Shown piece by piece: positions 2,381-58,811 of a stretch of 64,000 nucleotides of DNA. The position numbers were made by a program, and so were the translations under genes. The notes below the pieces were generated by a model. The model saw nothing but the letters and a program-made list of their open reading frames with translations. It made no database searches and was not told the DNA's origin. Positions within the stretch are counted from its first letter, which is position 1. Every line of letters begins with the position of its first letter. The DNA is from a virus, in the IMG/VR virus record IMGVR_UViG_3300033049_000020, positions 88,465 through 152,464 of that record. One strand, given 5' to 3'.

Positions 2381-2397
2381 AATATTTTACAAAAGAC

Positions 2398-2428
2398 TTG
2401 TATTATCCAAATACTTTTCGTATCTTTG
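2398..2428 (+). promoter_or_regulatory. Bacteroidota-type promoter for the first tRNA region
   Basis: TTG at 2398-2400 and TATCTTTG at 2421-2428 match the -33/-7 consensus. The transcript would begin with the MRNF leader ORF and the terminator at 2571. Confidence 0.8.
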
Positions 2429-2459
2429 TACTATATTTAATAGAAAGACATAAACAGTT

Positions 2460-2528
2460 ATGAGAAACTTTAACGACATATTCGAATTCAACTTTGCCGC
2501 ATTTGCGGAGGAGGATGATTGCATCTAG
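2460..2528 (+). CDS. Phe-rich leader peptide (22 aa)
   Basis: The frame encodes 22 residues starting MRNF, with five Phe among the first 15. It lies between a promoter and an intrinsic terminator, upstream of two tRNA-Phe genes, the layout of a classical amino-acid attenuator leader such as that of pheST. A second ORF starting MRNF (21179) has the same position before the second tRNA region but is not Phe-rich. Translation and attenuation are inferred. Confidence 0.5.
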   Translation: MRNFNDIFEFNFAAFAEEDDCI

Positions 2529-2570
2529 ATGCCAAAGGATATGTTGTAAACGAAACTCAATACGATATAC

Positions 2571-2604
2571 AAAACCTTTGGCTAACCAGTCAAAGGTTTT
2601 TTTT
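2571..2604 (+). terminator. intrinsic terminator / possible attenuator
   Basis: AAAACCTTTG pairs with CAAAGGTTTT across a 10-nt loop and is followed by a T run. It separates the MRNF leader from the tRNA genes, so downstream transcription needs readthrough or antitermination. Confidence 0.85.
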
Positions 2605-2624
2605 ATGCCTTAAAATTAAAATAT

Positions 2625-2662
2625 GCGACCTAAGCTAACTTGGTAGAAGCACTGGCTTGAAA
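2625..2662 (+). tRNA. 5' half of a split tRNA-like gene
   Basis: GCGACCT, a D-arm-like segment and CTGGCTTGAAACC (anticodon-arm-like) are followed by unrelated sequence. The only matching acceptor strand, AGGTCGC followed by ACCA, lies at 3294-3304. The two halves are separated by a boxA-like motif, a complete tRNA-Phe and an HNH gene. Whether they are ever joined is unknown; it may be a disrupted relic. Confidence 0.45.
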
Positions 2663-2698
2663 CCCTTCTTTCTAATAGAAGTAAAACAATTAGAGTGA

Positions 2699-2723
2699 GT
2701 TCTTTGACATCTTGGTTAAATGG
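2699..2723 (+). promoter_or_regulatory. boxA-like element
   Basis: GTTCTTTGACATCTTGG resembles the boxA/leader element in front of Bacteroidota rRNA genes. An almost identical copy lies at 3447. It immediately precedes tRNA-Phe, suggesting Nus-type antitermination or processing. Confidence 0.5.
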
Positions 2724-2795
2724 GGTAGTGGTAGAGTTGGTCAATTGCGTTCGGTTGAAGCCCGAAAGATGTAGGTTCGATTCCTACCTGCCTCA
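2722..2795 (+). tRNA. tRNA-Phe (GAA)
   Basis: A canonical 74-nt cloverleaf: acceptor GGGGTAG/CTGCCTC with two wobble pairs, anticodon arm TTCGG-TTGAAGC-CCGAA, T-arm GTAGG/CCTAC, A73, no encoded CCA. It is one of two tRNA-Phe genes flanking an HNH gene. Confidence 0.85.
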
Positions 2796-2835
2796 CAAAA
2801 GTTTGAACTATTTTTACACTTTTCAGTCTTTGTTG

Positions 2836-2859: not shown

Positions 2860-3276
2860 ATGGAAAAGAAAATTTGTACACGATGTGAAGATAGTAAAGA
2901 GTTAGACGACTTCAGTTGGAAGAGTAAAGTAAAAGGGACTAAACAGTCTAAGTGTAAAGTATGTATGCGTGAGTTGGATAAGATAAAATACGCTAATGAT
3001 ACTGAAAGGAGAAGAAGAATAAGGGAAACCGCAAAACTGGCTTATATTAGGAATCGTGATTTTGTGCGGAGAGTAAAAAGGTTGGGTAGCTGCTCTGAAT
3101 GTGTAGAAGATAGGTGGTATTGTTTAGACTTCCATCATTGTGGAGATAAAGAGTTTGAACTTAGTGATATGGTACATTCTGGGTATTCCATTATTAAGAT
3201 TAAAAAGGAAATTAGAAAATGTAAGCTTCTATGTGCTAATTGTCATAGAGAAGAACATTACCAGAATGGTTATTGA
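2860..3276 (+). CDS. HNH homing endonuclease
   Basis: The 138-residue protein has an N-terminal zinc knuckle (CxxC near residues 6-9 and KCKVC near 34-38), then an HNH core with DFHHCGDKEF and LLCANCHREEH near the C-terminus. It should cut DNA at a specific site and promote its own spread. The ATG at 2860 is preferred over upstream in-frame codons because those would translate through tRNA-Phe. Its stop lies in sequence that continues into the 3' half of a split tRNA-like gene. Confidence 0.88.
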   Translation: MEKKICTRCEDSKELDDFSWKSKVKGTKQSKCKVCMRELDKIKYANDTERRRRIRETAKLAYIRNRDFVRRVKRLGSCSECVEDRWYCLDFHHCGDKEFELSDMVHSGYSIIKIKKEIRKCKLLCANCHREEHYQNGY

Positions 3277-3304
3277 CGCGGTTCGAAACTGGTAGGTCGC
3301 ACCA
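3266..3304 (+). tRNA. 3' half of a split tRNA-like gene
   Basis: The segment contains GGTTCGAAAC and ends AGGTCGC followed by ACCA, so it even encodes a 3' CCA-like end. It complements the 5' half at 2625. The local T-stem pairs only partly, so the gene may be decayed. Confidence 0.45.
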
Positions 3305-3312
3305 AAACATAC

Positions 3313-3385
3313 GTGACAGTAGCTCAGTTGGTAGAGCATCGCCCTGAAGAGGCGAGTGTCGGGGGTTCGAGACCCTCTTGTCACA
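3313..3385 (+). tRNA. tRNA-Phe (GAA)
   Basis: A canonical 73-nt tRNA: acceptor GTGACAG/TTGTCAC, D-arm GCTC/GAGC, anticodon arm TCGCC-CTGAAGA-GGCGA, T-arm GGGGG/CCCTC with one mismatch-tolerant pair, A73. It is the second Phe gene, downstream of the HNH insertion. Confidence 0.92.
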
Positions 3386-3446
3386 CAGCTAATATTTTAG
3401 CCAGAAATAGCTAAAATAGAGGTAAATAGTTAATATATTAGCTATT

Positions 3447-3471
3447 GTTCTTTGACATCTTGGTTAAATGG
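3447..3471 (+). promoter_or_regulatory. boxA-like element, second copy
   Basis: It repeats the 2699 element through its last base and again sits directly before a tRNA 5' end (GGTGCTG at 3470). Confidence 0.5.
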
Positions 3472-3505
3472 TGCTGTATGCAAGCGGTTCAACGCAGCAA
3501 TTTGA
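3470..3505 (+). tRNA. 5' half of a split class II tRNA-like gene
   Basis: GGTGCTG, TA and a D-arm (TGC...GCA) are present, but the gene then runs into the HNH upstream region. GGTGCTG pairs over 7 positions (two wobbles) with CGGCACT at 4296-4302. The gene is interrupted by an HNH gene and a complete tRNA-Glu. The isotype cannot be decided. Confidence 0.5.
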
Positions 3506-3524
3506 CATTTTCTAAATGTTTAGT

Positions 3525-3534
3525 ATATTTATAT
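3525..3534 (+). promoter_or_regulatory. ATATTTATAT motif upstream of HNH gene
   Basis: A perfect copy of the decamer lies 16 nt before the ATG at 3550. Confidence 0.5.
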
Positions 3535-3549
3535 TAAAATAGATATATT

Positions 3550-4176
3550 ATGGTAAGAAAATGGAGAGAAAAGGAAATTGAGTTTTTAAAGCTTAATTAT
3601 GGTGCTAATGGTTGTAAATACGTTTGTGAAAAATTAAATAGAGGTAGAGGTAGTGTACAGAAAAAGGCTAAAGTCTTCAACCTGAAAGTAGATAGGAAAA
3701 AAATTTATTATTCAGTGGAAGTTGTTAGTAGAATAGTCAGTGAAAGTATGTCGATGAAGGATGTGGTGTTGGCATTAGGTAAAAGTGTTAGTGGTAAACA
3801 ATATAAGGTAATAAAAAAGTTTATAGATGATAATAGTATTGACGATACACATTTTAATCCTTACCACTTAAATAAAACTAATTTAAAAATTGGTAGAGTC
3901 ACATATCCAATTGACCATTGGCTTAAGAACGGTTCTAATATTAGTAGTTCTAACTTAAAGGTTAAACTATATAAAGAAGGTCTGAAGAAGAGGGATTGCG
4001 AAATGTGTGGGCAAGGTGAAGAATGGTTAGGTAAAAAAATGAGTTTAATACTTGACCATATTAATGGGGTGAATGATGATAATAGGTTGGATAACTTAAG
4101 GATTGTTTGCCCTAATTGTAACGCTACCTTGGAAACCCATTGTAGAGGTAGTAAGGGATTAAAACAACGTGCGTAA
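3550..4176 (+). CDS. HNH homing endonuclease ending inside tRNA-Glu
   Basis: The 208-residue protein has an N-terminal helix-turn-helix-like region (EIEFLKLNYGANGCKYV) for DNA recognition. The C-terminal HNH domain has CEMCG, LDHINGVNDDN, LRIVCPNCN and a final ETH. The last codons and the stop form the acceptor strand of the tRNA-Glu that starts at 4168. Such endonucleases usually target their own insertion site, and the geometry suggests the element inserted in a tRNA and supplied a new 5' half. Confidence 0.9.
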   Translation: MVRKWREKEIEFLKLNYGANGCKYVCEKLNRGRGSVQKKAKVFNLKVDRKKIYYSVEVVSRIVSESMSMKDVVLALGKSVSGKQYKVIKKFIDDNSIDDTHFNPYHLNKTNLKIGRVTYPIDHWLKNGSNISSSNLKVKLYKEGLKKRDCEMCGQGEEWLGKKMSLILDHINGVNDDNRLDNLRIVCPNCNATLETHCRGSKGLKQRA

Positions 4177-4250
4177 TGCAATTGGGTGCGCAACTGGGCT
4201 TTCACCCCAGCTACATTGTTAGAGAGTGGGTTCGATTCCCACACGCATGA
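4168..4250 (+). tRNA. tRNA-Glu (TTC) with long variable arm
   Basis: The acceptor is CGTGCGT/ACGCATG (one wobble), D-arm TGC/GCA, anticodon arm CTGGG-CTTTCAC-CCCAG with a textbook Glu loop, T-arm GTGGG/CCCAC, A73. The variable region is 15 nt with a CTA/TAG stem, where tRNA-Glu normally has 4-5 nt. Its 5' strand is also the end of the HNH gene. Confidence 0.82.
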
Positions 4251-4256
4251 CTATAC

Positions 4257-4303
4257 AACCTTGTGTCTATATGACTTCGAGGGTTCGAATCCCTTCGGCA
4301 CTA
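4257..4303 (+). tRNA. 3' half of a split class II tRNA-like gene
   Basis: It carries a class II-type variable arm (GTC...GAC), a good T-arm GAGGG-TTCGAAT-CCCTT, acceptor strand CGGCACT and A73. It matches the 5' half at 3470, about 0.8 kb upstream, and starts right after tRNA-Glu. Confidence 0.5.
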
Positions 4304-4444: not shown

Positions 4445-4517
4445 CGCCCGTTGGTCTATCGGTTAGGACGTCTGGTTTTCAACCAGAAGGTGATGGGTTC
4501 AATTCCCATACGGGTGA
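4445..4517 (+). tRNA. tRNA-Glu (TTC)
   Basis: A standard 73-nt tRNA: acceptor CGCCCGT/ACGGGTG, D-arm GTC/GAC, anticodon arm TCTGG-TTTTCAA-CCAGA, T-arm ATGGG/CCCAT, A73. It is the second Glu gene. Confidence 0.9.
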
Positions 4518-4543
4518 CCTTGACAATCTGGAAAGACAGATAA
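4518..4543 (+). repeat. repeated tRNA spacer CCTTGACAATCTGG...CAGATAA
   Basis: The spacer forms a hairpin (ATCTG/CAGAT) after a TTGACA-like start and recurs almost exactly at 5907-5932. It resembles the boxA-like spacers and always leads into a tRNA. Confidence 0.55.
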
Positions 4544-4547
4544 TTAT

Positions 4548-4624
4548 GGGGGATGGGACTGCTTTGGAGTGGTCACCTCACTTGCAATGAGGAAATCAGA
4601 TGGGTTCGAATCCCATATCCTCCA
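4548..4624 (+). tRNA. tRNA-Ala (TGC)
   Basis: Acceptor GGGGGAT/ATCCTCC, anticodon arm CCTCA-CTTGCAA-TGAGG, T-arm ATGGG/CCCAT, A73. The 77-nt length reflects a slightly enlarged D-arm. Confidence 0.9.
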
Positions 4625-4665
4625 CTCAATGTGGGACTTTGATTTACTTTTTCTCCACTTTGCGT

Positions 4666-4675
4666 ATATTTATAA
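4666..4675 (+). promoter_or_regulatory. ATATTTATAA motif upstream of HNH gene
   Basis: A close match to the ATATTTATAT class, 15 nt before the ATG at 4690. Confidence 0.45.
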
Positions 4676-4689
4676 TAAAGACTAAATAA

Positions 4690-5469
4690 ATGGCTAAGTG
4701 TAAGAATATTGAGTGTAAAAATAATACAGAAGGTAAACGAGTTTATTGTTCGTTACAGTGTAGGAACTATTATGTTAACAAATATATTAGGGACTACAAT
4801 AAAAATAGCAAGGGGCTTGCCAAAGACGCTAAGAAAGTTTATGAGGACAACCCTAAATATTGCTTAAACCCTAATTGCGGAGAGAAGATAACATATAAGA
4901 AAAGAAGGAACCAATATTGTAATAGCTCATGTCAGGCGTCTGTTACGGGTGTAGGTAGAATTGTTAGCGAAAGTACTAGGGAAAAGCATAGATTAAGTAG
5001 GTTAAAACAAATTGGTGATTACAAAAAGGTTGATTGTAAATGGTGTGGTTCAGAACTATTAGTTATGAATAGAAGACTATATTGTGATTCAGAATGTAGA
5101 AGAAAATATAATCGTAAGAATATGGATGAGTTCTTAATCTACAAAGCTGACACAAAATTCGGTTTTAATTTGGGTGATTATCCTAAAGAATTTAATTTTG
5201 GGCTGATAGAGGAACACGGTTGGTACTCACCAACCAATTCAAGAAAGCCTAATATTGGTGGTATAAGTAGAGACCACATGTTATCAGTTAGAGAAGGGTT
5301 TAATAGTGGGATAGACCCAAAATTATTGAGTCATCCAGCCAATTGTAAATTGATGATTCATGGTGATAATATTAGTAAGAATAAGAAATCTAGTATAACA
5401 GAAGAAGAATTAAAGGAAAGGATTAAAGAATGGAATAAGAAATATGGGGCTATGGTGACAACTGGCTAA
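4690..5469 (+). CDS. zinc-finger HNH-like endonuclease ending inside tRNA-Ala
   Basis: The 259-residue protein carries three Cys4-type knuckles (CKNIEC...CSLQC near 4-24, CLNPNC...CNSSC near 58-81, CKWCG...CDSEC near 116-136). A C-terminal HNH-like segment follows, with ISRDHMLSVREGF and CKLMIHGDNISKNKKS. Such proteins are intron- or intergenic-type homing endonucleases. The last codons (from 5446) coincide with the 5' half of a tRNA-Ala, the same arrangement as the HNH gene ending at 4176. Confidence 0.85.
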   Translation: MAKCKNIECKNNTEGKRVYCSLQCRNYYVNKYIRDYNKNSKGLAKDAKKVYEDNPKYCLNPNCGEKITYKKRRNQYCNSSCQASVTGVGRIVSESTREKHRLSRLKQIGDYKKVDCKWCGSELLVMNRRLYCDSECRRKYNRKNMDEFLIYKADTKFGFNLGDYPKEFNFGLIEEHGWYSPTNSRKPNIGGISRDHMLSVREGFNSGIDPKLLSHPANCKLMIHGDNISKNKKSSITEEELKERIKEWNKKYGAMVTTG

Positions 5470-5519
5470 CACGTTGCTTTTGCAAGGCAGAGATGGGGTA
5501 TCGTACACCCCTAGCTCCA
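5446..5519 (+). tRNA. tRNA-Ala (TGC) with atypical T-loop
   Basis: Acceptor GGGGCTA/TAGCTCC, D-arm GTG/CAC, anticodon arm TTGCT-TTTGCAA-GGCAG, A73. The T-arm is GGGGT-ATCGTAC-ACCCC, so the loop starts with A instead of T. Its 5' half is shared with the end of the HNH gene. It is the second Ala gene. Confidence 0.82.
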
Positions 5520-5544
5520 CTTATTAACTTAAAAATGAAGTAAA

Positions 5545-5906: not shown

Positions 5907-5932
5907 CTTTGACAATCTGGAAAGACAGATAA
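5907..5932 (+). repeat. repeated tRNA spacer, second copy
   Basis: It copies the 4518-4543 spacer (TTTGACAATCTGG, AAAG, ACAGATAA) with the same hairpin and leads directly into the next tRNA. Confidence 0.55.
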
Positions 5933-5934
5933 AT

Positions 5935-6017
5935 GGATATGGCGCATAACGGCTGGTGTACCTGACTGTCACTCAGGTGTGTGTAACACGTAGTGGGTTC
6001 GACTCCCATCATATCTG
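5935..6017 (+). tRNA. tRNA-Asp (GTC) with long variable arm
   Basis: Acceptor GGATATG/CATATCT, anticodon arm CCTGA-CTGTCAC-TCAGG with the standard Asp loop, T-arm GTGGG/CCCAT, G73. The variable region is 15 nt and can form GTGT...ACAC, unlike ordinary tRNA-Asp. Confidence 0.82.
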
Positions 6018-6041
6018 CCCTTGACTTTTTGGTACTTAGCC

Positions 6042-7009: not shown

Positions 7010-7112
7010 GAGCAAGCTGTCGTGAGACGCTGTATTGGGTTCATTACCCGATAAGTCTACGGTTAAAGGTGGTACCATTGTTAACTTATAGGTGCAATTC
7101 CTATTACATTCG
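7002..7112 (+). tRNA. tRNA-Met-like (CAT) with very long variable arm
   Basis: Acceptor GAATGTA/TACATTC (7 bp), D-stem AGC/GCT with an enlarged loop, anticodon arm TTGGG-TTCATTA-CCCGA. The variable region is about 34 nt with a GTTAA/TTAAC stem, and the T-arm ATAGG-TGCAATT-CCTAT has TG instead of TT. At 111 nt it is far longer than any normal tRNA. G73 is unusual for Met. Confidence 0.6.
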
Positions 7113-7114
7113 CT

Positions 7115-7196
7115 AAGGTTGAATACAGCAAACAAAAATTCCGAGAGATGTGCCCACGGGCACCCTTCCCGACCAAATTCCCGAAAGGGGTCAACC
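7115..7196 (+). ncRNA. structured RNA with TACAGCAAACAAAAA motif
   Basis: AGGTTGA and TCAACCT form a 7-bp closing stem, like a tRNA acceptor. Inside are ATACAGCAAACAAAAA, a GTGCC/GGCAC hairpin and a CCC-GAAA-GGG hairpin. The A-rich motif recurs at 8898 and 22271 beside anticodon arms. No function is known to me. Confidence 0.5.
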
Positions 7197-8844: not shown

Positions 8845-8957
8845 TGGCGTATGGTGTAGTGGTAGCACACTTATAACGGAACCTGACCAAGGTTCTATTC
8901 AGCAACAAAAATTTCCATTTCGAGGAAGTAGCGGAGGTTCGATTCCTTCTACGTCAA
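8845..8957 (+). tRNA. tRNA-Glu-like (TTC) with insertion before the anticodon arm
   Basis: Acceptor TGGCGTA/TACGTCA, D-arm GTG/CAC, anticodon arm TTTCC-ATTTCGA-GGAAG (8912-8928), T-arm GGAGG/CCTTC, A73. About 43 extra nt lie between the D-arm and the anticodon arm. They contain a GAACCT/AGGTTC hairpin and the motif TTCAGCAACAAAAA. Without the insertion it is an ordinary tRNA. Confidence 0.6.
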
Positions 8958-10095: not shown

Positions 10096-10839
10096 ATGGA
10101 ACTAATAATTGGGTCAACCGCCCTTAAATACCACTTCCCCGACTTCAATCGGGAACCGAAGGACTTAGACATTGCGGTGCCAGATAGTTCTAAGTATAAG
10201 ACTTCTAGAGAGATAGAATATCTCCAAAATCCAGTAATTTTCAAGTATATAGAAGAAGGTCAAAAATACATTGACCCAAACTTGTTATTATCCTTAAAAA
10301 TGTCACACCTATTCTTTGATAATAGATGGGACAAACATATGTGGGATACTCAGTTCCTAATAGATAAAGGTTGTGAGTATGACATCAATATTATGATGGA
10401 CTTATACGAGTACTGGAAGAAAGACTATCCTAGACATAGAAGAAGTGATTTGGATATGACCAAAGATGAATTCTTCACCAATGCTATTAACTATGATGAG
10501 AATGAACATGATTACCTTCACACTCTAATCAATCCAGAGCCACTATATCGTAAGATATTGGTTGGAGGTAAAGAGGTGGAGATAAGTGAAGCCCAGTTCA
10601 ACGCTTTAGACTTTGAAACTAAGTTGGAATTGATTAGGGAAGAAGTATATGTAATGGCATTTGAAAGGTATAAGGATAAACATCATTTGGTGGCCTATTC
10701 TATAATGCTTAAGAAGTTTATCAGACAACACGCACCGATATGGATGTTTCCATTTGTGGTGGAGAATTACATTAAATTAAGTAGAGCAAAAATCAATTTT
10801 ATAACAAAAATAGAAACACAATTAAATCATGGAAATTAA
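10096..10839 (+). CDS. nucleotidyltransferase-like protein
   Basis: The 247-residue protein begins MELIIGSTALKYHF and has KDLDIAV near residue 22. This is the GS...DxD arrangement of the DNA polymerase beta-type nucleotidyltransferase fold, as in phage proteins related to the minimal transferases. The C-terminal half is helical. The substrate could be a nucleotide added to RNA or protein, but nothing visible decides it. The upstream part of the frame (10069-10095) covers the leader and is excluded. Confidence 0.6.
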   Translation: MELIIGSTALKYHFPDFNREPKDLDIAVPDSSKYKTSREIEYLQNPVIFKYIEEGQKYIDPNLLLSLKMSHLFFDNRWDKHMWDTQFLIDKGCEYDINIMMDLYEYWKKDYPRHRRSDLDMTKDEFFTNAINYDENEHDYLHTLINPEPLYRKILVGGKEVEISEAQFNALDFETKLELIREEVYVMAFERYKDKHHLVAYSIMLKKFIRQHAPIWMFPFVVENYIKLSRAKINFITKIETQLNHGN

Positions 10840-11062
10840 CTTAACAGAACTTAACACAAAGCTGAAGAACTTCGGCTCACTACCTGTCGTAGAGTCACAC
10901 TCTGACGTCAACGTTGACGAAGGATACACTATCAGAAAGCTTACCGATGACTTATTCTTGAAGGTATACACCTATGAGGATTCGTATGGTGACAACGTAA
11001 CCACTGGAATCGAATTCGTTAAAGCGGTAGAATCAAAAGTAACAAATTATGAAACAATTTAA
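10829..11062 (+). CDS. small hypothetical protein
   Basis: A 77-residue acidic protein with alternating beta-type residues, unrecognised. It overlaps the nucleotidyltransferase-like gene by 11 nt. Confidence 0.7.
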   Translation: MEINLTELNTKLKNFGSLPVVESHSDVNVDEGYTIRKLTDDLFLKVYTYEDSYGDNVTTGIEFVKAVESKVTNYETI

Positions 11063-13958: not shown

Positions 13959-14882
13959 ATGTTTAATAAATTATATGGTAAGCCAGTGGCTACAGTTGAA
14001 GAAATTCACGAAGAATTTGATTCGGCACAAGAAAGACTACTTAAAGAGTGTGATGATATTTTGAATACACTTGAAATCCCTACTGAGGGTAAAGTGGAGC
14101 GAAAAGCATCTAACTTAGAAGCGTTAGGTTTTATTAATTCAAAAACAGTAGAAGATTATAAGGACTTTAAAGAGTCAGTAAAGAACGTAGAGGAAAAAAT
14201 TGATTTTACAACCACACAAGCCACTGAAATCAGAAACTTAGCATTCAGATATCCATTCGAGAAATTCATCACTACTGACGAATTAGATAGAATCTGTACT
14301 AAGTACGACCTACTTCATGCGCCAGTAGCTAACTACATCAAAGATGTTCCAGAGAAGAATGTGTTGGAGATGAAGAATAGAAAACCTTTGGACGTAAAAG
14401 ATGCGGTTGAGGCGGTTTACGAATTATTTGGATTCGAAACCAATAGATTCATGAATCTATTGGGTAAAACGGATACTAAGTTCACTGAGTCTGAGGTAAT
14501 AGCTATCTGTGAAACATACGGAGGGCGTCCAAATACTACGATTGGACACCTTAAAAATGGTGATACTAGTTTTACCTTCGGAATTCTTTATAGTATTTTA
14601 AACGATTTTACGAAAATTAATTATAGTGATTATAATTTTACTAGTATGACCACGATAGACCAATCTGGATTACATGTTGCTGCACCAAAATCACACTTTA
14701 ACCTAAAAGGGTTAGATAAAATTACTAAATTTGGGTGGGGCGTTAAAAGAGAGGTAGAAGTTAAAGACCCAGTAGTATTTGAATACTGCCAAAATGACAT
14801 CGTAAGAATTATTACTAAATGGGGAACGGAAGACGACCAATCATATTTGGATGATGCATTACAAAACCCAACACTAAACTAA
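13959..14882 (+). CDS. hypothetical protein, paralogue 1 of a tandem pair
   Basis: The 307-residue protein is homologous to the next gene: both have TVEEIHxEFD near the start, a coiled region, then KFIT(T/V)DELDxIC, APV, YIKDVPEKN and a conserved end WGTxDDQSYLD. No domain recognised. Conserved acidic and aromatic residues suggest a structured intracellular protein. Confidence 0.82.
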   Translation: MFNKLYGKPVATVEEIHEEFDSAQERLLKECDDILNTLEIPTEGKVERKASNLEALGFINSKTVEDYKDFKESVKNVEEKIDFTTTQATEIRNLAFRYPFEKFITTDELDRICTKYDLLHAPVANYIKDVPEKNVLEMKNRKPLDVKDAVEAVYELFGFETNRFMNLLGKTDTKFTESEVIAICETYGGRPNTTIGHLKNGDTSFTFGILYSILNDFTKINYSDYNFTSMTTIDQSGLHVAAPKSHFNLKGLDKITKFGWGVKREVEVKDPVVFEYCQNDIVRIITKWGTEDDQSYLDDALQNPTLN

Positions 14883-17212: not shown

Positions 17213-17297
17213 GGCGCAATAGCTCAGTTGGTAGAGCGAGGTTTAAAAATGCTACTTGTAGCGGCCTTGGTCGGTGGTTCGAATCCATCTTGCGCCA
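17213..17297 (+). tRNA. tRNA-Leu-like (TAA) with 16-nt insertion in the anticodon loop
   Basis: Acceptor GGCGCAA/TTGCGCC, D-arm GCTC/GAGC, T-arm GGTGG/CCATC, A73. The anticodon stem CGAGG/CCTTG encloses TTTAAAA, a perfect 7-nt loop for anticodon TAA, followed by an extra hairpin GCTAC/GTAGC. The variable loop is short, unlike normal tRNA-Leu. The isotype is tentative. Confidence 0.6.
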
Positions 17298-17302
17298 CAT
17301 AT

Positions 17303-17360
17303 GGGGAGGTCAGAGAGGTAGCATTAGGGCTACCCAAGGGTTCGAATCCCTAACTCTCCA
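17303..17360 (+). tRNA. minimal tRNA-like RNA lacking one arm
   Basis: Acceptor GGGGAG/CTCTCC and a T-arm (AGGG-TTCGAAT-CCCT) are present, but only 26 nt lie between them. They form a single hairpin GGTAGC/GCTACC with loop ATTAGG. At 58 nt it lacks a D-arm or an anticodon arm. It could be a functional mini-tRNA or a deletion relic. Confidence 0.45.
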
Positions 17361-17372
17361 CTATTATATAAG

Positions 17373-17570
17373 GTACGGTAGCTCAGATTGCGTTAGAGCA
17401 CTCTTCCTATTAGAGGTGTACAACTTGAAGTAGGAGTATTAAGATGACTGATAAGATAGTATAGTGAGATTCCCTGATGTACAAGGAGGAACGTTGCTAG
17501 AGTGAAATTGAAAGAAGTCTCGATATTAATAACATGAGAGGGGTCGGTGGTTCGAATCCCTCTAGTGCAA
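17373..17570 (+). tRNA. tRNA-Arg-like (CCT) with about 120-nt insertion in the anticodon loop
   Basis: The 5' part has a good D-arm (GCTC/GAGC) and CACTC-TTCCTAT. The 3' part has GAGAG, a T-arm with TTCGAAT and A73. Between them lie about 120 nt without tRNA features, too short for a typical group I intron. The acceptor strands pair only partly, so it may be a decayed or chimeric gene. Confidence 0.4.
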
Positions 17571-17595
17571 CTAAAATATTTTAAACGAATATACT

Positions 17596-21400: not shown

Positions 21401-21473
21401 TTGAGAAGTAGCTTAAACTACAAAGCTCCATCCGTGAGGGGTGGGGATGGAGGTGTAAACCCTCCTTCTCAAC
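21401..21473 (+). tRNA. tRNA-like gene, possibly His (GTG)
   Basis: Acceptor TTGAGAA/TTCTCAA, D-arm AGCT/AGCT, anticodon stem CCATC/GGTGG, T-arm GGAGG-TGTAAAC-CCTCC. C73 is typical of bacterial tRNA-His and GTG lies in the loop. However, no T precedes it, and the T-loop has TG rather than TT. Ser (TGA) is the alternative reading. Confidence 0.5.
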
Positions 21474-21479
21474 TAATAT

Positions 21480-21558: not shown

Positions 21559-21569
21559 CTTTTTAATCT

Positions 21570-21663
21570 CTAGTAATGTGCGAGTGGATTAAGCAACTGG
21601 CCTTGGAAACCAGTGAGGACTTCAAGAGGTTGTCTTCCGTAGGTTCGAATCCTACTTACTAGA
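21570..21663 (+). tRNA. tRNA-Ser (GGA) with 9-nt anticodon loop
   Basis: Acceptor CTAGTAA/TTACTAG, class II variable arm GAGGAC/GTCTTC, T-arm GTAGG/CCTAC, A73. The stem ACTGG/CCAGT encloses CC plus TTGGAAA, so the loop is two bases too long on the 5' side; without them the loop is normal for GGA. Confidence 0.75.
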
Positions 21664-21700
21664 AATGACTAAGTTAACTACTTCCACGTAGTAGTCATTG
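21664..21700 (+). repeat. hairpin after tRNA-Ser
   Basis: AATGACTA pairs with TAGTCATT (8 bp), with a CTAC/GTAG inner helix. There is no T run. It could be a processing signal or a remnant acceptor-like stem. Confidence 0.4.
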
Positions 21701-22326: not shown

Positions 22327-22412
22327 TGAGCGATATGCAAACTGGCAAGCAAACAGGTTTTGAACCTGTCGTGACGAAAGTCCAATTGTAGGTTCGAACC
22401 CTACTCGCTCAA
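22327..22412 (+). tRNA. tRNA-Gln-like (TTG) with class II variable arm
   Basis: Acceptor TGAGCGA/TCGCTCA, D-arm TGC/GCA, anticodon arm ACAGG-TTTTGAA-CCTGT, T-arm GTAGG/CCTAC, A73. The 18-nt variable region contains GAC-GAAA-GTC, which normal tRNA-Gln lacks. Confidence 0.75.
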
Positions 22413-22467
22413 CCGTTTACTTTTCTGTACTTTTTAAGTACATTATACAATAACAAAAAATGATACT

Positions 22468-24713: not shown

Positions 24714-24783
24714 GCGATTATAGTTTAATTCAGAATACCAACCATCTAGGTTGGAGATGTTGGTGGAAACCCAGCTAATCGCT
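24714..24783 (+). tRNA. tRNA-Arg-like (TCT), atypical loops
   Basis: Acceptor GCGATTA/TAATCGC, anticodon arm CCAAC-CATCTAG-GTTGG (A instead of T at position 33), T-arm GTTGG-TGGAAAC-CCAGC with TG in place of TT. Confidence 0.6.
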
Positions 24784-24788
24784 CATAT

Positions 24789-38682: not shown

Positions 38683-38763
38683 ATGGGTGAATTATATGGT
38701 GTTAGTTTGGAAACAATTAAGAATATAAAATATAAGAAGACGTGGAAACATATAAAGATTTAA
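38683..38763 (+). pseudogene. remnant of a homing-endonuclease C-terminal helix-turn-helix
   Basis: A 26-residue frame (LYGVSLETIKNIKYKKTWKHI) matches the DNA-binding tail typical of HNH endonucleases, with no nuclease domain upstream. It overlaps the first 22 nt of mnmA. It suggests an endonuclease gene was once here and was deleted. Confidence 0.5.
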
Positions 38764-39863
38764 AAGGGAAAAGGGTCTTGTGTGCGATGTCGGGAGGATT
38801 AGATTCCACCATGACAGCGTTACTATTGCACGAGGCTGGATGTGACTGTATAGGTATCACGATGAAAACTTGGGACTATGCATCTTCTGGAGTTGCTGAC
38901 AGTAACTCCAAGACCACAGGTTGTTGCTCGTTGGATGACATCAACGATGCTAGACAACTATGTGTCGATTACGATATCCCTCATAACATCATTGATATAC
39001 GTGAAACTTTCACCGACTCAGTGGTTGATAACTTCATTGATGAATATATGGCTGGTAGGACACCCAATCCTTGTATAGTATGTAATACTCACATTAAGTG
39101 GGGTGCGCTATTAAATTATGCCGACCAATTAGGGTGCGACTATATTGCGACTGGCCATTATGCTCGTATCCGTTACGAAAATGACAGATACGTTATCTCA
39201 AGTGGTATTGATGTAACTAAAGACCAAAGCTATGTGCTATATGGGTTGAGCCAAGAGGTGTTAGCCCGTACTCTAGTTCCTATGGGTGAATACCTTAAAA
39301 GTGATATCAGGAACATGGCTAAAGAGCGTGGCTATGACGCAATTGCTACTAAATCGGAGAGTTACGAGATTTGTTTTGTACCTATTGGACACTTTAGTGA
39401 TTTCTTAAAATTTAAGAGACCAGAGTTATTGCACTTAGATGGTGGGGAAATCAGACTTAAAGATGAGACCGTAATAGGTACGCATCATGGGTATCCTTTC
39501 TACACCGTAGGACAAAGAAGAGGACTTGGGTTATCGACTGGCAATGCGGTATACGTTAATGACATAGACCCTAAGAATAATATTGTCTACGTTGGTGGTG
39601 AAGATGAGTTGAATAAGACTGTGGTATATGTCAAAGATTTTAACTACGTCAAATACCCGTCTATTGAGGATGGATTCGAATGTGTTGTTAAAATACGTTA
39701 TAAGGATAGAGGTTCCCATGCTAGGTTATACAATGCTGAAGATGGGTTAATTAGGGTAGAGTTCCTAAAAGAGGTGAAAGCCCCTACGTTAGGTCAGAGT
39801 GCAGTAGCCGTTGATTATGATGGTGACCTGATTGGTGGTGGTATAATGATTAAGCGTATGTAA
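38742..39863 (+). CDS. mnmA: tRNA-specific 2-thiouridylase MnmA
   Basis: The 373-residue protein is of normal MnmA length. The PP-loop SGGLDSTMTALLLHEAG is near residue 17. The two catalytic Cys are in NPCIVCNTHIKWG (near 106) and ESYEICFVP (near 207), and a GHYARI element and C-terminal beta-barrels are present. MnmA thiolates U34 of tRNA Lys, Glu and Gln, and the window encodes tRNAs with TTT, TTC and TTG anticodons. The start is a GTG inside an endonuclease remnant. Its 3' end overlaps the convergent GIY-YIG gene by 14 bp. Confidence 0.92.
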   Translation: METYKDLKGKRVLCAMSGGLDSTMTALLLHEAGCDCIGITMKTWDYASSGVADSNSKTTGCCSLDDINDARQLCVDYDIPHNIIDIRETFTDSVVDNFIDEYMAGRTPNPCIVCNTHIKWGALLNYADQLGCDYIATGHYARIRYENDRYVISSGIDVTKDQSYVLYGLSQEVLARTLVPMGEYLKSDIRNMAKERGYDAIATKSESYEICFVPIGHFSDFLKFKRPELLHLDGGEIRLKDETVIGTHHGYPFYTVGQRRGLGLSTGNAVYVNDIDPKNNIVYVGGEDELNKTVVYVKDFNYVKYPSIEDGFECVVKIRYKDRGSHARLYNAEDGLIRVEFLKEVKAPTLGQSAVAVDYDGDLIGGGIMIKRM

Positions 39864-40545
39864 ACGTAAATCCTAAATGGGTTTTACGTCTTCCACAAAC
39901 AACGTTTGATATGTACTTAACTTGGGTGTTTAACGCATTAGCGCAATGCGTTAAACTTTCCCATTTCTTGATGAATTCACCATCCTTAGTGAATTGCTTG
40001 ATTCTCTTATAGGTCTTGTGTTCTTCCTTAACTGTTTTACCGTAAAACGGGTTTTTGTTACCTAATTTAGATTTTCGTATGTTTTCTACGTGAGTTTCTG
40101 ATAATTTCTTACCTTTACGGGCTTTGCTTAATTTTAATTTAGTTTCTTCTGTAAGTGTTTTACCCTTTCTATGTGATGGTCTACCCTTTAATGATTCACT
40201 TATTTTACGTTTAGTTTCTTCACTTTGTTTAGACCCTAAACGACTTCCAGCTACAGGACAACAATTGTAGCCGAGTTTATATGTATCACCTTCATCAATG
40301 AAACTTTGTTCGATGGTTATAAGTTCTTCTATATCACATGTGGTAATAACCTCAAACTTGAAATTACTTTCACCATATTTATTCCACGCTCGTTGCAGTT
40401 TAATTGAGTGATGTTTATCACCCTTTAAGTCGTTTAGGTGTTCTCTCCACCTCACCCCAATATTAATAGCTGAACCGATGTAAACCTTACCGTTGGTAAT
40501 ATTCGTGATAGAGTAAATGCCAGATACGTTTAAATCCTCTTTCAT
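39850..40545 (-). CDS. GIY-YIG homing endonuclease with NUMOD repeats
   Basis: The 231-residue protein has a GIY-YIG nuclease (SGIYSITNITNGKVYIGSAI, residues 8-28), NUMOD3-type repeats (SEETKRKISESLKGRPSHRKG and two more) and a C-terminal NUMOD1-like region (IKQFTKDGEFIKKWESL). It is on the minus strand, converging into the end of mnmA. It overlaps an upstream ribbon-helix-helix gene by 4 nt (ATGA). Confidence 0.93.
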   Translation of the reverse strand: MKEDLNVSGIYSITNITNGKVYIGSAINIGVRWREHLNDLKGDKHHSIKLQRAWNKYGESNFKFEVITTCDIEELITIEQSFIDEGDTYKLGYNCCPVAGSRLGSKQSEETKRKISESLKGRPSHRKGKTLTEETKLKLSKARKGKKLSETHVENIRKSKLGNKNPFYGKTVKEEHKTYKRIKQFTKDGEFIKKWESLTHCANALNTQVKYISNVVCGRRKTHLGFTFTYA

Positions 40546-40697
40546 GGCTTTACTAATCCAAAATGTTGTTCCAACAACCAATTAATCAGTTGCGACTTAT
40601 TCGTACCAGTCTTGGCTAACGATTCGTAGTTCTCTGGTGAGATGGTAACACTTACCGTACTCTTTTTATCACTATCTTTTTTCTTTGGTCTTCCCAT
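40542..40697 (-). CDS. ribbon-helix-helix-like regulator
   Basis: The 51-residue protein starts GRPKKK (AT-hook-like), then STVSVTISPENYESLAKTG and KSQLINWLLEQHF. This is the strand/helix/helix order of RHH proteins. It is coupled to the GIY-YIG endonuclease, so it probably controls it. Confidence 0.7.
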   Translation of the reverse strand: MGRPKKKDSDKKSTVSVTISPENYESLAKTGTNKSQLINWLLEQHFGLVKP

Positions 40698-44300: not shown

Positions 44301-44837
44301 AATAGGACTTGGAGTATATCTAAGTCCACCACAACACACGATAGGCTTAAGAAAGACCCTATGGAATGGTATTATTACCATACCTTATATGCTGAATCAC
44401 GTAAATCTTGGTTGGAGATACCGTTTGTTGAGATAGCTAAGAAGTTGAAAGGTAGACCTGATTGGATTGTGGGTGATTTTGGTTGCGGTGAGAACCTATT
44501 GGCTAAGGAAGTCGATAATAAGGTTCATGGATTTGACCATGTGGCTATCAATGACTCGGTAGTATCGTGTGACATAACCAACGTACCACTAGAGGATGGG
44601 GTATTAGACGTTGCGGTGTTCTCATTATCCTTGATGGGTACTAACTACAAGGGATACTTCCAAGAAGCGTATAGAACGCTTAAATCCTATGGTAATATAT
44701 TCGTATGTGAGCCAGCAGCCAAATGGGAAGGAAGAGAAGAACAACTTAAGGCTGAATTAGAAGTAGTCGGTTTCAAGTGTTTCGGAACCATAAGGAATAC
44801 TGACAAATTCATTTACGTTGATGGTGTTAAGTATTAG
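41316..44837 (+). CDS. zinc-repeat / SF2 helicase / RRP8-like methyltransferase fusion
   Basis: A 1173-residue three-part protein. Residues 1-330 hold repeats of YDYSKVxY plus zinc sites (CPEHGEFEQ...CxxC), DUF723-like. Residues 370-440 are an acidic, Thr-rich linker. Residues 520-900 are an SF2 helicase: Walker A GTGAGKTNAF near 545, DEVH near 638, MSATPV near 678 and QLKGRLQRTG near 878. Residues 1040-1173 match the RRP8 rRNA methyltransferase family: VGDFGCGENLLA, VHGFDHVAIND, CDITNVPLEDGVLDVAVFSL, SLMGTNYKGYFQEAYRTL. RRP8 makes m1A in large-subunit rRNA in eukaryotes. The phage target is unknown. Confidence 0.88.
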   Translation: MTDKTKEFIQKLKDSGYWNDEYDYSKVEYVNSKTKVIIIDKKFGTEHKIKPNNILSQGFKPSIRNAVDRNEYLVNQFREVHGEWYDYSKANYVGNGKVKTTIICPEHGEFEQSVAKHIFGQGCTKCGGNEKDITTERFLQKLKDSGYWNDEYDYSKVNYVNGNTKVIVIDIKLDTEHLITPTKLLVNNKCTIQNAVDQNEYLIKRFEEVHGGRYDYSKVEYVNSYDNVIIICPEHGEFEQTPTNHRRGAGCRECGGNKPLTTEGVIEQFKEVHGEGYDYSKVRYSGIDNKVIIICPEHGGFEQTPYDHRKGAGCSICNRGWNRGHLIRFFSDMEKGRDILLMDSMELMRLIEQGKLPREVQELVFEMDDTGDNTLRDLKDRVLGEDGTEEPTTQSGETDTTTDTEEGVETPQRTQTEDEEVGEEPEPTLPTMGGIDDLLVLDNEMVVTCDDETVEFFISHRLNKYWNGVINGERDVNELIGSEGGVNFQTTKQRFLEEYQEVMDYQVPEGYNFRDKNGKLLQPFMMQKLTVLRVKNYRRYGNWSGTGAGKTNAFIITSREIDSRLTLVVGLNATINQLGEDILSVFPDSVIHTRYSKGTTYDRSKHNYLLLNYEKFQQDYSEGLFQDLNDNNQIDFVVIDEVHNVKQRTTDDESIRRGTLMRLVGRAEETNPNLHLLAMSATPVINNLTEAKSLLHMTTGEEYNDIHNRSTISNAIRVFSHLTRNGIRYRPNYDIKVNELSGENTPHLRIDGMHLIDRLVTLSNTDYVGVERTLLDDKLNAVFNDIDKGTIMYSYYTDDGIIPRLIADHIKRLGFSYGLYTGEVGTSERVSTLNDFIDGKIDVLITSGPISTGVDGLQKVSNKIIITTLPWTDANYVQLKGRLQRTGSIFKEVDIIIPQIHIEYDGEPWSLDSQRLAILRNKRTIADAAVDGVLPSQSMVTMKGLHTEAFKSLAVIKERLELDGARLSQRNKLTFPLRPEVVETMGRKLGDFSEMNRTWSISKSTTTHDRLKKDPMEWYYYHTLYAESRKSWLEIPFVEIAKKLKGRPDWIVGDFGCGENLLAKEVDNKVHGFDHVAINDSVVSCDITNVPLEDGVLDVAVFSLSLMGTNYKGYFQEAYRTLKSYGNIFVCEPAAKWEGREEQLKAELEVVGFKCFGTIRNTDKFIYVDGVKY
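41341..41389 (+). repeat. 49-bp direct repeat, copy 1
   Basis: The DNA is identical to 41731-41779, within the zinc-repeat part of the helicase gene. This indicates a recent internal duplication or gene conversion. Confidence 0.85.
41731..41779 (+). repeat. 49-bp direct repeat, copy 2
   Basis: Identical to 41341-41389; the surrounding repeat units have diverged much more. Confidence 0.85.
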
Positions 44838-45477
44838 AAGCTATGTACTTTGGGGACTTCCACAAGAAGTGATTGCTAGAACGCTATTCCCAATGGGTGA
44901 TTACTTGAAGGCTGATATTAGAAAGATGGCAGAAGATAGAGGATATAAGGCTATTGCTACTAAGTCAGAAAGTTATGAAGTTTGCTTCATTCCAGATAAT
45001 AATTATCGAGGATTCTTATCTCGAAAGAGAGAAATCAAAGGTGGTAACTTCTTGGACATGGATGGTAATGTAATGGGAACTCATGATGGGTATCCATTCT
45101 TCACCATTGGACAAAGAAGAGGATTGGGGATTGAAGGTGGCGCTGACCCGTATTTTGTTTGCGCCATTAATCCTAAGACTGGTGACGTGGTTTTAGGTAG
45201 AGAAAAGGACTTGATGCGTAAGAGTATGTTGGTGACTGATATCAACACTGTTAAGTACCCAATCGAAATGTTGGATGGTATGGAAGTACTTGCCAACGTG
45301 AGATATAGAGGCGCTAAAGTGACTGGTAAGTTGACCGATATGGGAGATGGTATATTCAGAGTAGACTTCAATCACCAAGTTAAGTCTATAACTGCTGGTC
45401 AATCCACTGTGTTCTACGATGTTAAGTATACTGACGATGTAATCGGTGGTGGACATATACATAGTGTATTAGAATAG
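44818..45477 (+). CDS. C-terminal MnmA fragment (second mnmA)
   Basis: From SYVLWGLPQEVIARTLFPMG to the end it parallels residues 160-373 of the full MnmA at 38742 and keeps the second catalytic Cys (ESYEVCF). It lacks the PP-loop and the first Cys. It starts at a TTG overlapping the helicase stop. Divergence from the full copy is substantial, so it is not a recent duplicate. It may be a decayed gene truncated by insertion of the helicase gene, or a tRNA-binding fragment. Confidence 0.7.
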   Translation: MMVLSIRSYVLWGLPQEVIARTLFPMGDYLKADIRKMAEDRGYKAIATKSESYEVCFIPDNNYRGFLSRKREIKGGNFLDMDGNVMGTHDGYPFFTIGQRRGLGIEGGADPYFVCAINPKTGDVVLGREKDLMRKSMLVTDINTVKYPIEMLDGMEVLANVRYRGAKVTGKLTDMGDGIFRVDFNHQVKSITAGQSTVFYDVKYTDDVIGGGHIHSVLE

Positions 45478-58215: not shown

Positions 58216-58392
58216 ATGGATAATATACGTTGTTATTTATGTGGAAGATTTATCGGAAATAAAGACTTCGAAGCCAATAAGGTTGACGTGAAGTTCACGC
58301 CTGACACGGAATTCACGTCAGAAGATATAAAACATTATCATTCAGAGTGTATGTGCAAAATTAGTCAGAACAGTAAAAACAAAAAAATATGA
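58216..58392 (+). CDS. small Cys/His protein
   Basis: A 58-residue protein with RCYLCGR at the start and YHSECMC near the end, likely a small zinc finger. It overlaps the next gene by 4 nt. Confidence 0.6.
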   Translation: MDNIRCYLCGRFIGNKDFEANKVDVKFTPDTEFTSEDIKHYHSECMCKISQNSKNKKI

Positions 58393-58811
58393 GTGTAGAT
58401 TTTTATGGTTGCGAATCATGCGGCAATTCGAGATACGAAGAGTATGTAGCAGCATGTAATAAGTGTTACAATGACTTATGCGTATCATGTCTGGTTGATA
58501 AGAACACTATAGAGGTTGATTCCGACTTCGCATACGTATATGGGTATAGGTTCGACTCTAAGAACCCAGAACTAATGGAGCGTTACAAGTCAGAGGGATT
58601 CTACCTTTATAACGAGGATGGTACAACTGACTACGAAGATGGTGAAATCATCGGTGACAGTGGTATTGATAGTAAGTACTGCCCGTTTTGTGCTGGTAAT
58701 AAAATAGACAAAGTAGAAGTGTTAGGTTACCTATTAGGTAAATGTGGACTAAGCCTTGATGAGGCTTGGGAAGAAATGAAAAAATCATATCAAAAAGAAG
58801 AGAATGAGTGA
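58389..58811 (+). CDS. zinc-finger-like hypothetical protein
   Basis: The 140-residue acidic protein has CESCG, CNKCYNDLCVSC in the first 40 residues and CPFCAG near 100: several CxxC pairs like a RING or double zinc-ribbon. A protein-interaction role is plausible but not shown. Confidence 0.72.
   Translation: MSVDFYGCESCGNSRYEEYVAACNKCYNDLCVSCLVDKNTIEVDSDFAYVYGYRFDSKNPELMERYKSEGFYLYNEDGTTDYEDGEIIGDSGIDSKYCPFCAGNKIDKVEVLGYLLGKCGLSLDEAWEEMKKSYQKEENE

Follow-up and report, generated by a model that had tools for sequence, protein, structure and literature searches.

A tRNA gene in the window (the whole 64,000-nt stretch of DNA analysed, taken from the right-hand end of an IMG/VR virus record that comes from a huge phage, is 152 kb long and has 52 tRNA matches) is dead, and is referred to here as X. 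It is broken in two, has lost nucleotides at the break and contains a complete nested tRNA. We propose that X, most likely a tRNA-Glu(UUC), was split by a free-standing HNH homing endonuclease cassette that carries a replacement tRNA of the same anticodon, an explanation we consider probable. The break at X is not a single accident, as the break-and-replace pattern recurs at a Phe and an Arg gene, where the anticodons of the broken and nested tRNAs are identical. The features at X are as follows.

3470..3500, plus strand: 5′ half of X, comprising the acceptor strand, the D-arm and the first 3 nt of the anticodon stem, recognized by sequence, pairing and D-arm signature
3501..3549, plus strand: left end of the cassette, a promoter-like repeat upstream of HNH2 that belongs to repeat family D17
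3550..4176, plus strand: HNH2, a free-standing HNH endonuclease gene of 208 aa
4168..4250, plus strand: Glu-B, a complete long-variable-arm tRNA-Glu(UUC)
4256..4303, plus strand: 3′ half of X, comprising C36-A37-A38, the 3′ anticodon strand, the variable arm, the T-arm and the acceptor strand
4445..4519, plus strand: Glu-C, an ordinary tRNA-Glu(UUC) whose 3′ end is similar to the single Glu gene of the related contig L025

The two halves are parts of one tRNA. The 5′ half reads GGTGCTG TA TGC-AAGCGGTTCAAC-GCA G CAA, and the 3′ half reads CAA CCTTG, a variable arm T-GTC-TATAT-GAC-TTC, a T-arm GAGGG-TTCGAAT-CCCTT, the acceptor CGGCACT and A73. The complementarity described in the initial annotation between a half at 3470 and one ending at 4303 stands, with coordinates good to within a few bases: the acceptor GGTGCTG/CGGCACT is paired at seven of seven positions (five Watson-Crick, two G-U), and the CAA at positions 27-29 is paired with the TTG at 41-43. 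The T-arm is intact and the variable arm forms a small hairpin, GTC-TATAT-GAC, making X a long-variable-arm tRNA. It is highly improbable that the two pieces are remnants of unrelated tRNAs whose match is accidental. By acceptor pairing and D-arm alone such 5′ pieces occur at 0.039 per kb in this genome, or about 0.03 expected per 0.8 kb, and this is the extent to which chance could account for them; however, each piece independently fits the same uncommon tRNA body, the 5′ half through its D-arm TATGCAAGCGG and the 3′ half through the 'CTTCGaGGGTTCG' leading into the T-arm, and for this reason a chance match is unlikely. The additional pairing of positions 27-29 with 41-43 and the presence in the genome of two more split tRNAs with the same layout also argue against it. 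The paired acceptor strands and the arms kept in each half would suit a tRNA that is trans-joined, as had been suggested earlier, or cis-spliced after both halves are transcribed, but we find this reading scarcely credible. When every join of the halves with proper spacing was enumerated, in cis or in trans, the best restored three of five anticodon-stem pairs, and those best joins lacked U33. About six nucleotides of the anticodon arm (roughly positions 30-35), including the first two anticodon positions, are gone, and the competing suggestion in the initial annotation, that the insertion destroyed the tRNA, is thereby borne out. Nor does the insert contain a group I intron, as there was no Rfam match at E<=1 and there were no core motifs. 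This search was run permissively, since the gathering threshold misses the positive control, a group I intron in the tRNA-Leu of a related huge phage, which the permissive search detects (26.3 bits, E 2e-4). Because no join restores the anticodon stem and the insert is without a group I intron, joining or splicing of X is very unlikely; furthermore, the broken tRNA-Phe described below is without four of five bases of one T-stem strand, and intact isoacceptors are present in the genome, so rescue by joining is unneeded. An uninterrupted homologue elsewhere in the genome had been thought to speak against the split. Other intact tRNA-Glu(UUC) genes do exist (4168-4250 and 4445-4519) and an unbroken relative of X is found in another huge phage (L090:900-984), although at the same place as X no intact copy was found; these genes count against trans-joining, not against the kinship of the halves, which still belong together.

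The material between the halves spans about 755 bp (3501-4255). Its left edge was set immediately after the 5′ half of X because the D17 repeat found there also precedes two other nearby HNH genes, copies lying before HNH1 (2813-2849), HNH2 (3502-3538) and HNH3 (4643-4679). The HNH gene that had been reported to separate the halves is recovered by both Pfam HNH (PF01844, 25.6 bits, cut-off 21.4) and PHROG (phrog_10822 HNH endonuclease, 3e-34); its reading frame is intact, encodes an HNH nuclease domain and lies outside any self-splicing intron. SegB, an endonuclease of phage tRNA arrays, is a GIY-YIG enzyme. HNH2 has nuclease matches to HNH families only and none to the GIY-YIG domain of the SegB family. 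All six viral homologues of HNH2 lie on tRNA-bearing contigs. The 5′ end of Glu-B overlaps the last codons of HNH2, and Glu-B scores 39.5 bits in Rfam (cut-off 29) with the anticodon UUC, in agreement with the earlier reading of a complete tRNA-Glu nested within a split tRNA.

The same arrangement is found just upstream of X, in a tRNA-Phe whose split was absent from the initial annotation, and a related one at the downstream Ala genes.

2624..2665, plus strand: Phe-A 5′ half, a broken tRNA-Phe(GAA) running through position 41
2722..2796, plus strand: Phe-B, a complete tRNA-Phe(GAA) inside Phe-A
2862..3276, plus strand: HNH1, an endonuclease gene inside Phe-A (phrog_2255 HNH endonuclease, 1.8e-28)
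3281..3301, plus strand: Phe-A 3′ half, from position 53, with an 8-bp acceptor in which AGGTCGCA is perfectly paired with TGCGACCT
3313..3386, plus strand: Phe-C, a complete tRNA-Phe(GAA)
4548..4624, plus strand: tRNA-Ala(UGC), complete, on the upstream side of HNH3
4690..5469, plus strand: HNH3, an HNH3-like gene between two tRNA-Ala(UGC) genes (phrog_1271 HNH endonuclease, 5e-11)
5446..5520, plus strand: second tRNA-Ala(UGC), overlapping the last codons of HNH3, 81% identical to the tRNA-Ala of LR756502 and scoring 40.9 bits in Rfam

The Phe-A halves have intact homologues among phages, namely the tRNA-Phe genes of Calle and PPSC2, the 5′ half matching PPSC2 over 46 nt at 93.6% and Calle over 34 nt at 100%, and relative to intact phage tRNA-Phe genes positions 42-52 have been lost. 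A third case in this genome, the tRNA-Arg gene Arg-A with a UCU anticodon, lies outside the window (halves at G000:57701-57726 and 58380-58422) and holds a complete tRNA-Arg(UCU), Arg-B, and an HNH gene. At Phe and Arg the isotype match is direct, as the nested tRNA has the anticodon of the broken one, and at all three loci both native halves are kept beside the insert. In the Ala unit, where the tRNA-Ala and the start of HNH3 share 69% DNA identity with LR756501, the 3′ end of the HNH gene runs into a tRNA with the same anticodon on its other side, a layout also seen for Gly/Gly, Pro/Pro and Asn/Asn in relatives. Within this subset of reading frames running into a tRNA, which was picked post hoc, the anticodon is the same on both sides in 4/7 against a background of 13% (binomial 0.008). 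The broader proposition that endonuclease gaps are generally flanked by identical anticodons was rejected: as a class these gaps are not enriched (7/35, compared with 31/189 for close pairs without an endonuclease in these phages; p = 0.63), and only the subset shows the pattern. A scan of related records for further endonuclease-split tRNAs gave no clear case, and its background was high: at equal score there were 14 hits in the forward search and 9 in the control. Two observations on amber tRNAs may be added: G000:47335-47483, outside the window, holds two tandem tRNAs with CUA anticodons, and in a related phage a CUA tRNA (L020:6631-6703) directly follows a homologue of HNH2, where GGATCAT/ATGATCC flanks suggest a further split tRNA.

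In the comparison with relatives, the L025 contig aligns on both sides of the cluster (window 2385-2607 and 10105-10856). Between those flanks it carries one uninterrupted gene each for Phe, Glu, Asp and Ala, together with one GIY-YIG-like gene, but no HNH gene. In L025 another cluster also consists of single genes (Pro, Gln, Tyr, Thr, Gly, Lys), most of which are present two or three times in the window. Relative to L025, the window lineage has additional same-anticodon tRNAs together with endonuclease genes. Because of the nested structure, we infer a gain in the window lineage rather than a loss in L025. An exact pattern search for intact X returned only unrelated tRNAs (mostly tRNA-Ser or sequences without a tRNA call) or nothing. 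The conserved leader upstream of the cluster was found in IMG/VR only on the L025 contig and in no bacterial genome, and a search with the flanking protein at 412-1119 found no viral relatives. A spacer, TTGACAATCTGGAAAGACAGATAA, stands before tRNA genes (window 4519-4545 and 5907-5933; L025:9281-9304) and is conserved at about 96% identity to the relative; it is possibly a promoter or processing signal.

In our model the cassette, consisting of HNH2, its upstream element and the long-variable-arm tRNA-Glu(UUC), would have landed in the anticodon arm of X and removed roughly positions 30-35. The endonuclease, predicted to cut tRNA DNA, would first cleave the tRNA gene of a recipient genome; recombinational repair would then transfer both the endonuclease gene and the same-anticodon tRNA of the donor, and the leftover ends of the recipient tRNA would persist as two halves. 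Decoding of GAA/GAG would be maintained by Glu-B and Glu-C. The breakpoints vary, being about 29|36 in X, 41|53 in Phe and about 26|30 in Arg, with nucleotides lost at each, and therefore fit cutting, trimming and recombinational repair rather than a precise intron or integrase. Co-conversion of adjacent DNA is known for free-standing endonucleases, and the tRNA presumably travelled with the endonuclease and was not joined to it afterwards. The nested tRNAs differ from the dead ones in the sequence of the anticodon stem, as between X (CAA../CCTTG) and Glu-B (CTGGG/CCCAG), and such differences would fit a putative resistance to the enzyme. As judged by anticodon, the insert would be a functional substitute at Phe and Arg, and at X it is a probable one for Glu.

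The identity of X decides whether the nested tRNA is a replacement there as well. When X was compared with 660 collected tRNAs, the top score (37) went to a tRNA-Glu(UUC) of another huge phage (L090:900-984), and since its nearest intact relative is a tRNA-Glu(UUC), X is probably a tRNA-Glu as well, of the same isotype as Glu-B, by a narrow margin over tRNA-Tyr; Glu-B would then probably read the same codon as the dead gene. The L090 gene has a Tyr-like body with a Glu anticodon, shares with X the start of the anticodon stem (CAA), the end of the loop (CAA) and the end of the stem (CTTG), and precedes an ordinary tRNA-Glu as X precedes Glu-C. We consider it unlikely that the HNH cassette broke a tRNA of another isotype, such as tRNA-Tyr, with Glu-B a mere neighbour in a crowded array. 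The next-best match to X is indeed a tRNA-Tyr (score 34.5), several Tyr genes come close to the score of the Glu match, the D-arm TATGCAAGCGG is mainly a tRNA-Tyr signature among viral tRNAs (the exceptions being one His, one Val, one Glu and two Ser), and same-anticodon doublets without endonucleases are common. However, C36-A37-A38 of the 3′ half, provided that it is part of X, is compatible with UUC but not with GUA, the Phe and Arg splits of the same genome are isotype-matched, two tRNA-Tyr genes are already present in the genome, and the slot is a Glu slot in L025. A different reading, compatible with our main explanation as its selective side, is that doublets and insertions reflect selection by host defences that cut tRNAs, a further tRNA with the same anticodon but another structure being retained for its resistance to cleavage while the endonuclease acts only as an agent of recombination. 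Loop changes in phage tRNAs have been put forward as a means of escaping anticodon nucleases (PMC10264068), the amplification of tRNA-Tyr by SegB counters Septu, a defence that cuts the variable loop of this tRNA (PMC13096335), and long variable arms are frequent here in non-class-II isotypes; by itself, though, this reading gives no account of the broken halves around the cassette, and we regard it as somewhat unlikely.

If split by a cassette with its own replacement tRNA, X may represent a wider process, which we put forward tentatively as 'home-and-rescue'. Here endonuclease genes would destroy a tRNA gene while travelling with a putative cleavage-resistant tRNA of the same anticodon, leaving the invaded genome dependent on the cassette, and it is possible that repeated rounds followed by loss of the endonuclease gave rise to the doubled tRNA sets of huge phages. 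The proposal bears on the dozens of partly redundant tRNA genes in such phages. If cassettes swap in same-anticodon tRNAs, some of this surplus would record the passage of selfish elements and not be a matter of codon supply, and, if true, the process would be a natural counterpart to engineered cleave-and-rescue gene drives, with targets that are small and easily assayed.

The closest analogues are the SegB-type endonucleases of phage tRNA arrays and the mobile endonuclease elements (mORFs) of fungal mitochondria, and here an mORF-like replacement would strike tRNA genes. As with SegB of T4/T6, the endonuclease gene lies within a phage tRNA array (PMC13096335). SegB cuts within tRNA genes and drives their amplification, recombination altering the tRNA set (PMC13096335), where for HNH2 cutting would be the corresponding step; in that work a tRNA gene is amplified in tandem at full length, and no isotype was found to be favoured (PMC13096335). 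Unlike SegB, HNH2 is of the HNH type, and its insertion splits the tRNA and leaves a nested isoacceptor, a probable one at X. The mORFs, found in Allomyces atp6 and in Glomus atp6, atp9, cox2 and nad3, carry a replacement gene end (PMC3630166): an endonuclease gene inserts into a gene, carrying a diverged substitute for the portion that is lost, with the native remnant adjoining, as is proposed here. In mORFs, however, the target is a protein gene of which the C-terminal part alone is replaced in frame, whereas the present cassette would supply an entire tRNA gene and leaves two dead native halves. Group I introns in tRNA genes, which occur in the tRNA-Leu of related huge phages, also place an endonuclease gene inside a tRNA, but the inserts of the window have neither a ribozyme core nor a clean exon junction. 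In archaeal split tRNA genes, which are trans-spliced, the gene is likewise in two halves; unlike these, the halves of X lack some nucleotides and no full tRNA is possible.

Several observations accompany these results. Related huge phages have group I introns with classical core motifs in genes for tRNA-Leu and other tRNAs, at L043:19622-19885 (minus strand) and at the W01 and G002 loci, the one tested with Rfam falling below its gathering score. A possible protein-gene parallel of remnant and replacement is seen in mnmA (tRNA 2-thiouridylase), where a complete copy (38742-39863) is followed by a GIY-YIG gene (39850-40581, minus strand) and, 5 kb further, by a second copy (44818-45477) that is without the first 161 residues (residues 162-367 are present) and is 50% identical.

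Unusual tRNAs are frequent in the arrays. Long variable arms occur in tRNAs with Glu, Asp, Pro and Gln anticodons (window 4168-4250, 5934-6020, 21569-21664 and 22327-22414), which usually stand next to an ordinary counterpart with the same anticodon; in a wider set of related records they extend to Lys, Thr, Met, Asn, Cys, Ala, Ile and Trp, and some long-variable-arm tRNAs are Tyr-bodied with a changed anticodon. Candidate 'permuted tRNAs' in a relative were rejected, as they are YrlA (Y RNA-like) sequences; YrlA-like copies lie within the tRNA array of a related phage (L045:4917-5029, 8899-9014, 3785-3872 on the minus strand, and 14681-14836; also L044:14031-14221). The tRNA at 17213-17298 has an additional anticodon-loop hairpin, GCTAC-TT-GTAGC, and is given the anticodon 'aaaa' by ARAGORN. 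It is followed by two tRNA-like remnants, one (17300-17357) reduced to an acceptor, one inner hairpin and a T-arm, the other (17360-17571) with about 100 nt between its tRNA-like 5′ and 3′ pieces. Three tRNA-like sequences uncalled by ARAGORN at its defaults (7010-7120, 21403-21478 and 24714-24784) have paired ends, an anticodon-like loop and non-standard T-loops. Finally, the motif CAGCAA(A)CAAAAA occurs near or inside tRNA-like sequences at window positions 7125, 8903 and 22270, and is contained in a 113-nt tRNA at 8845-8957.
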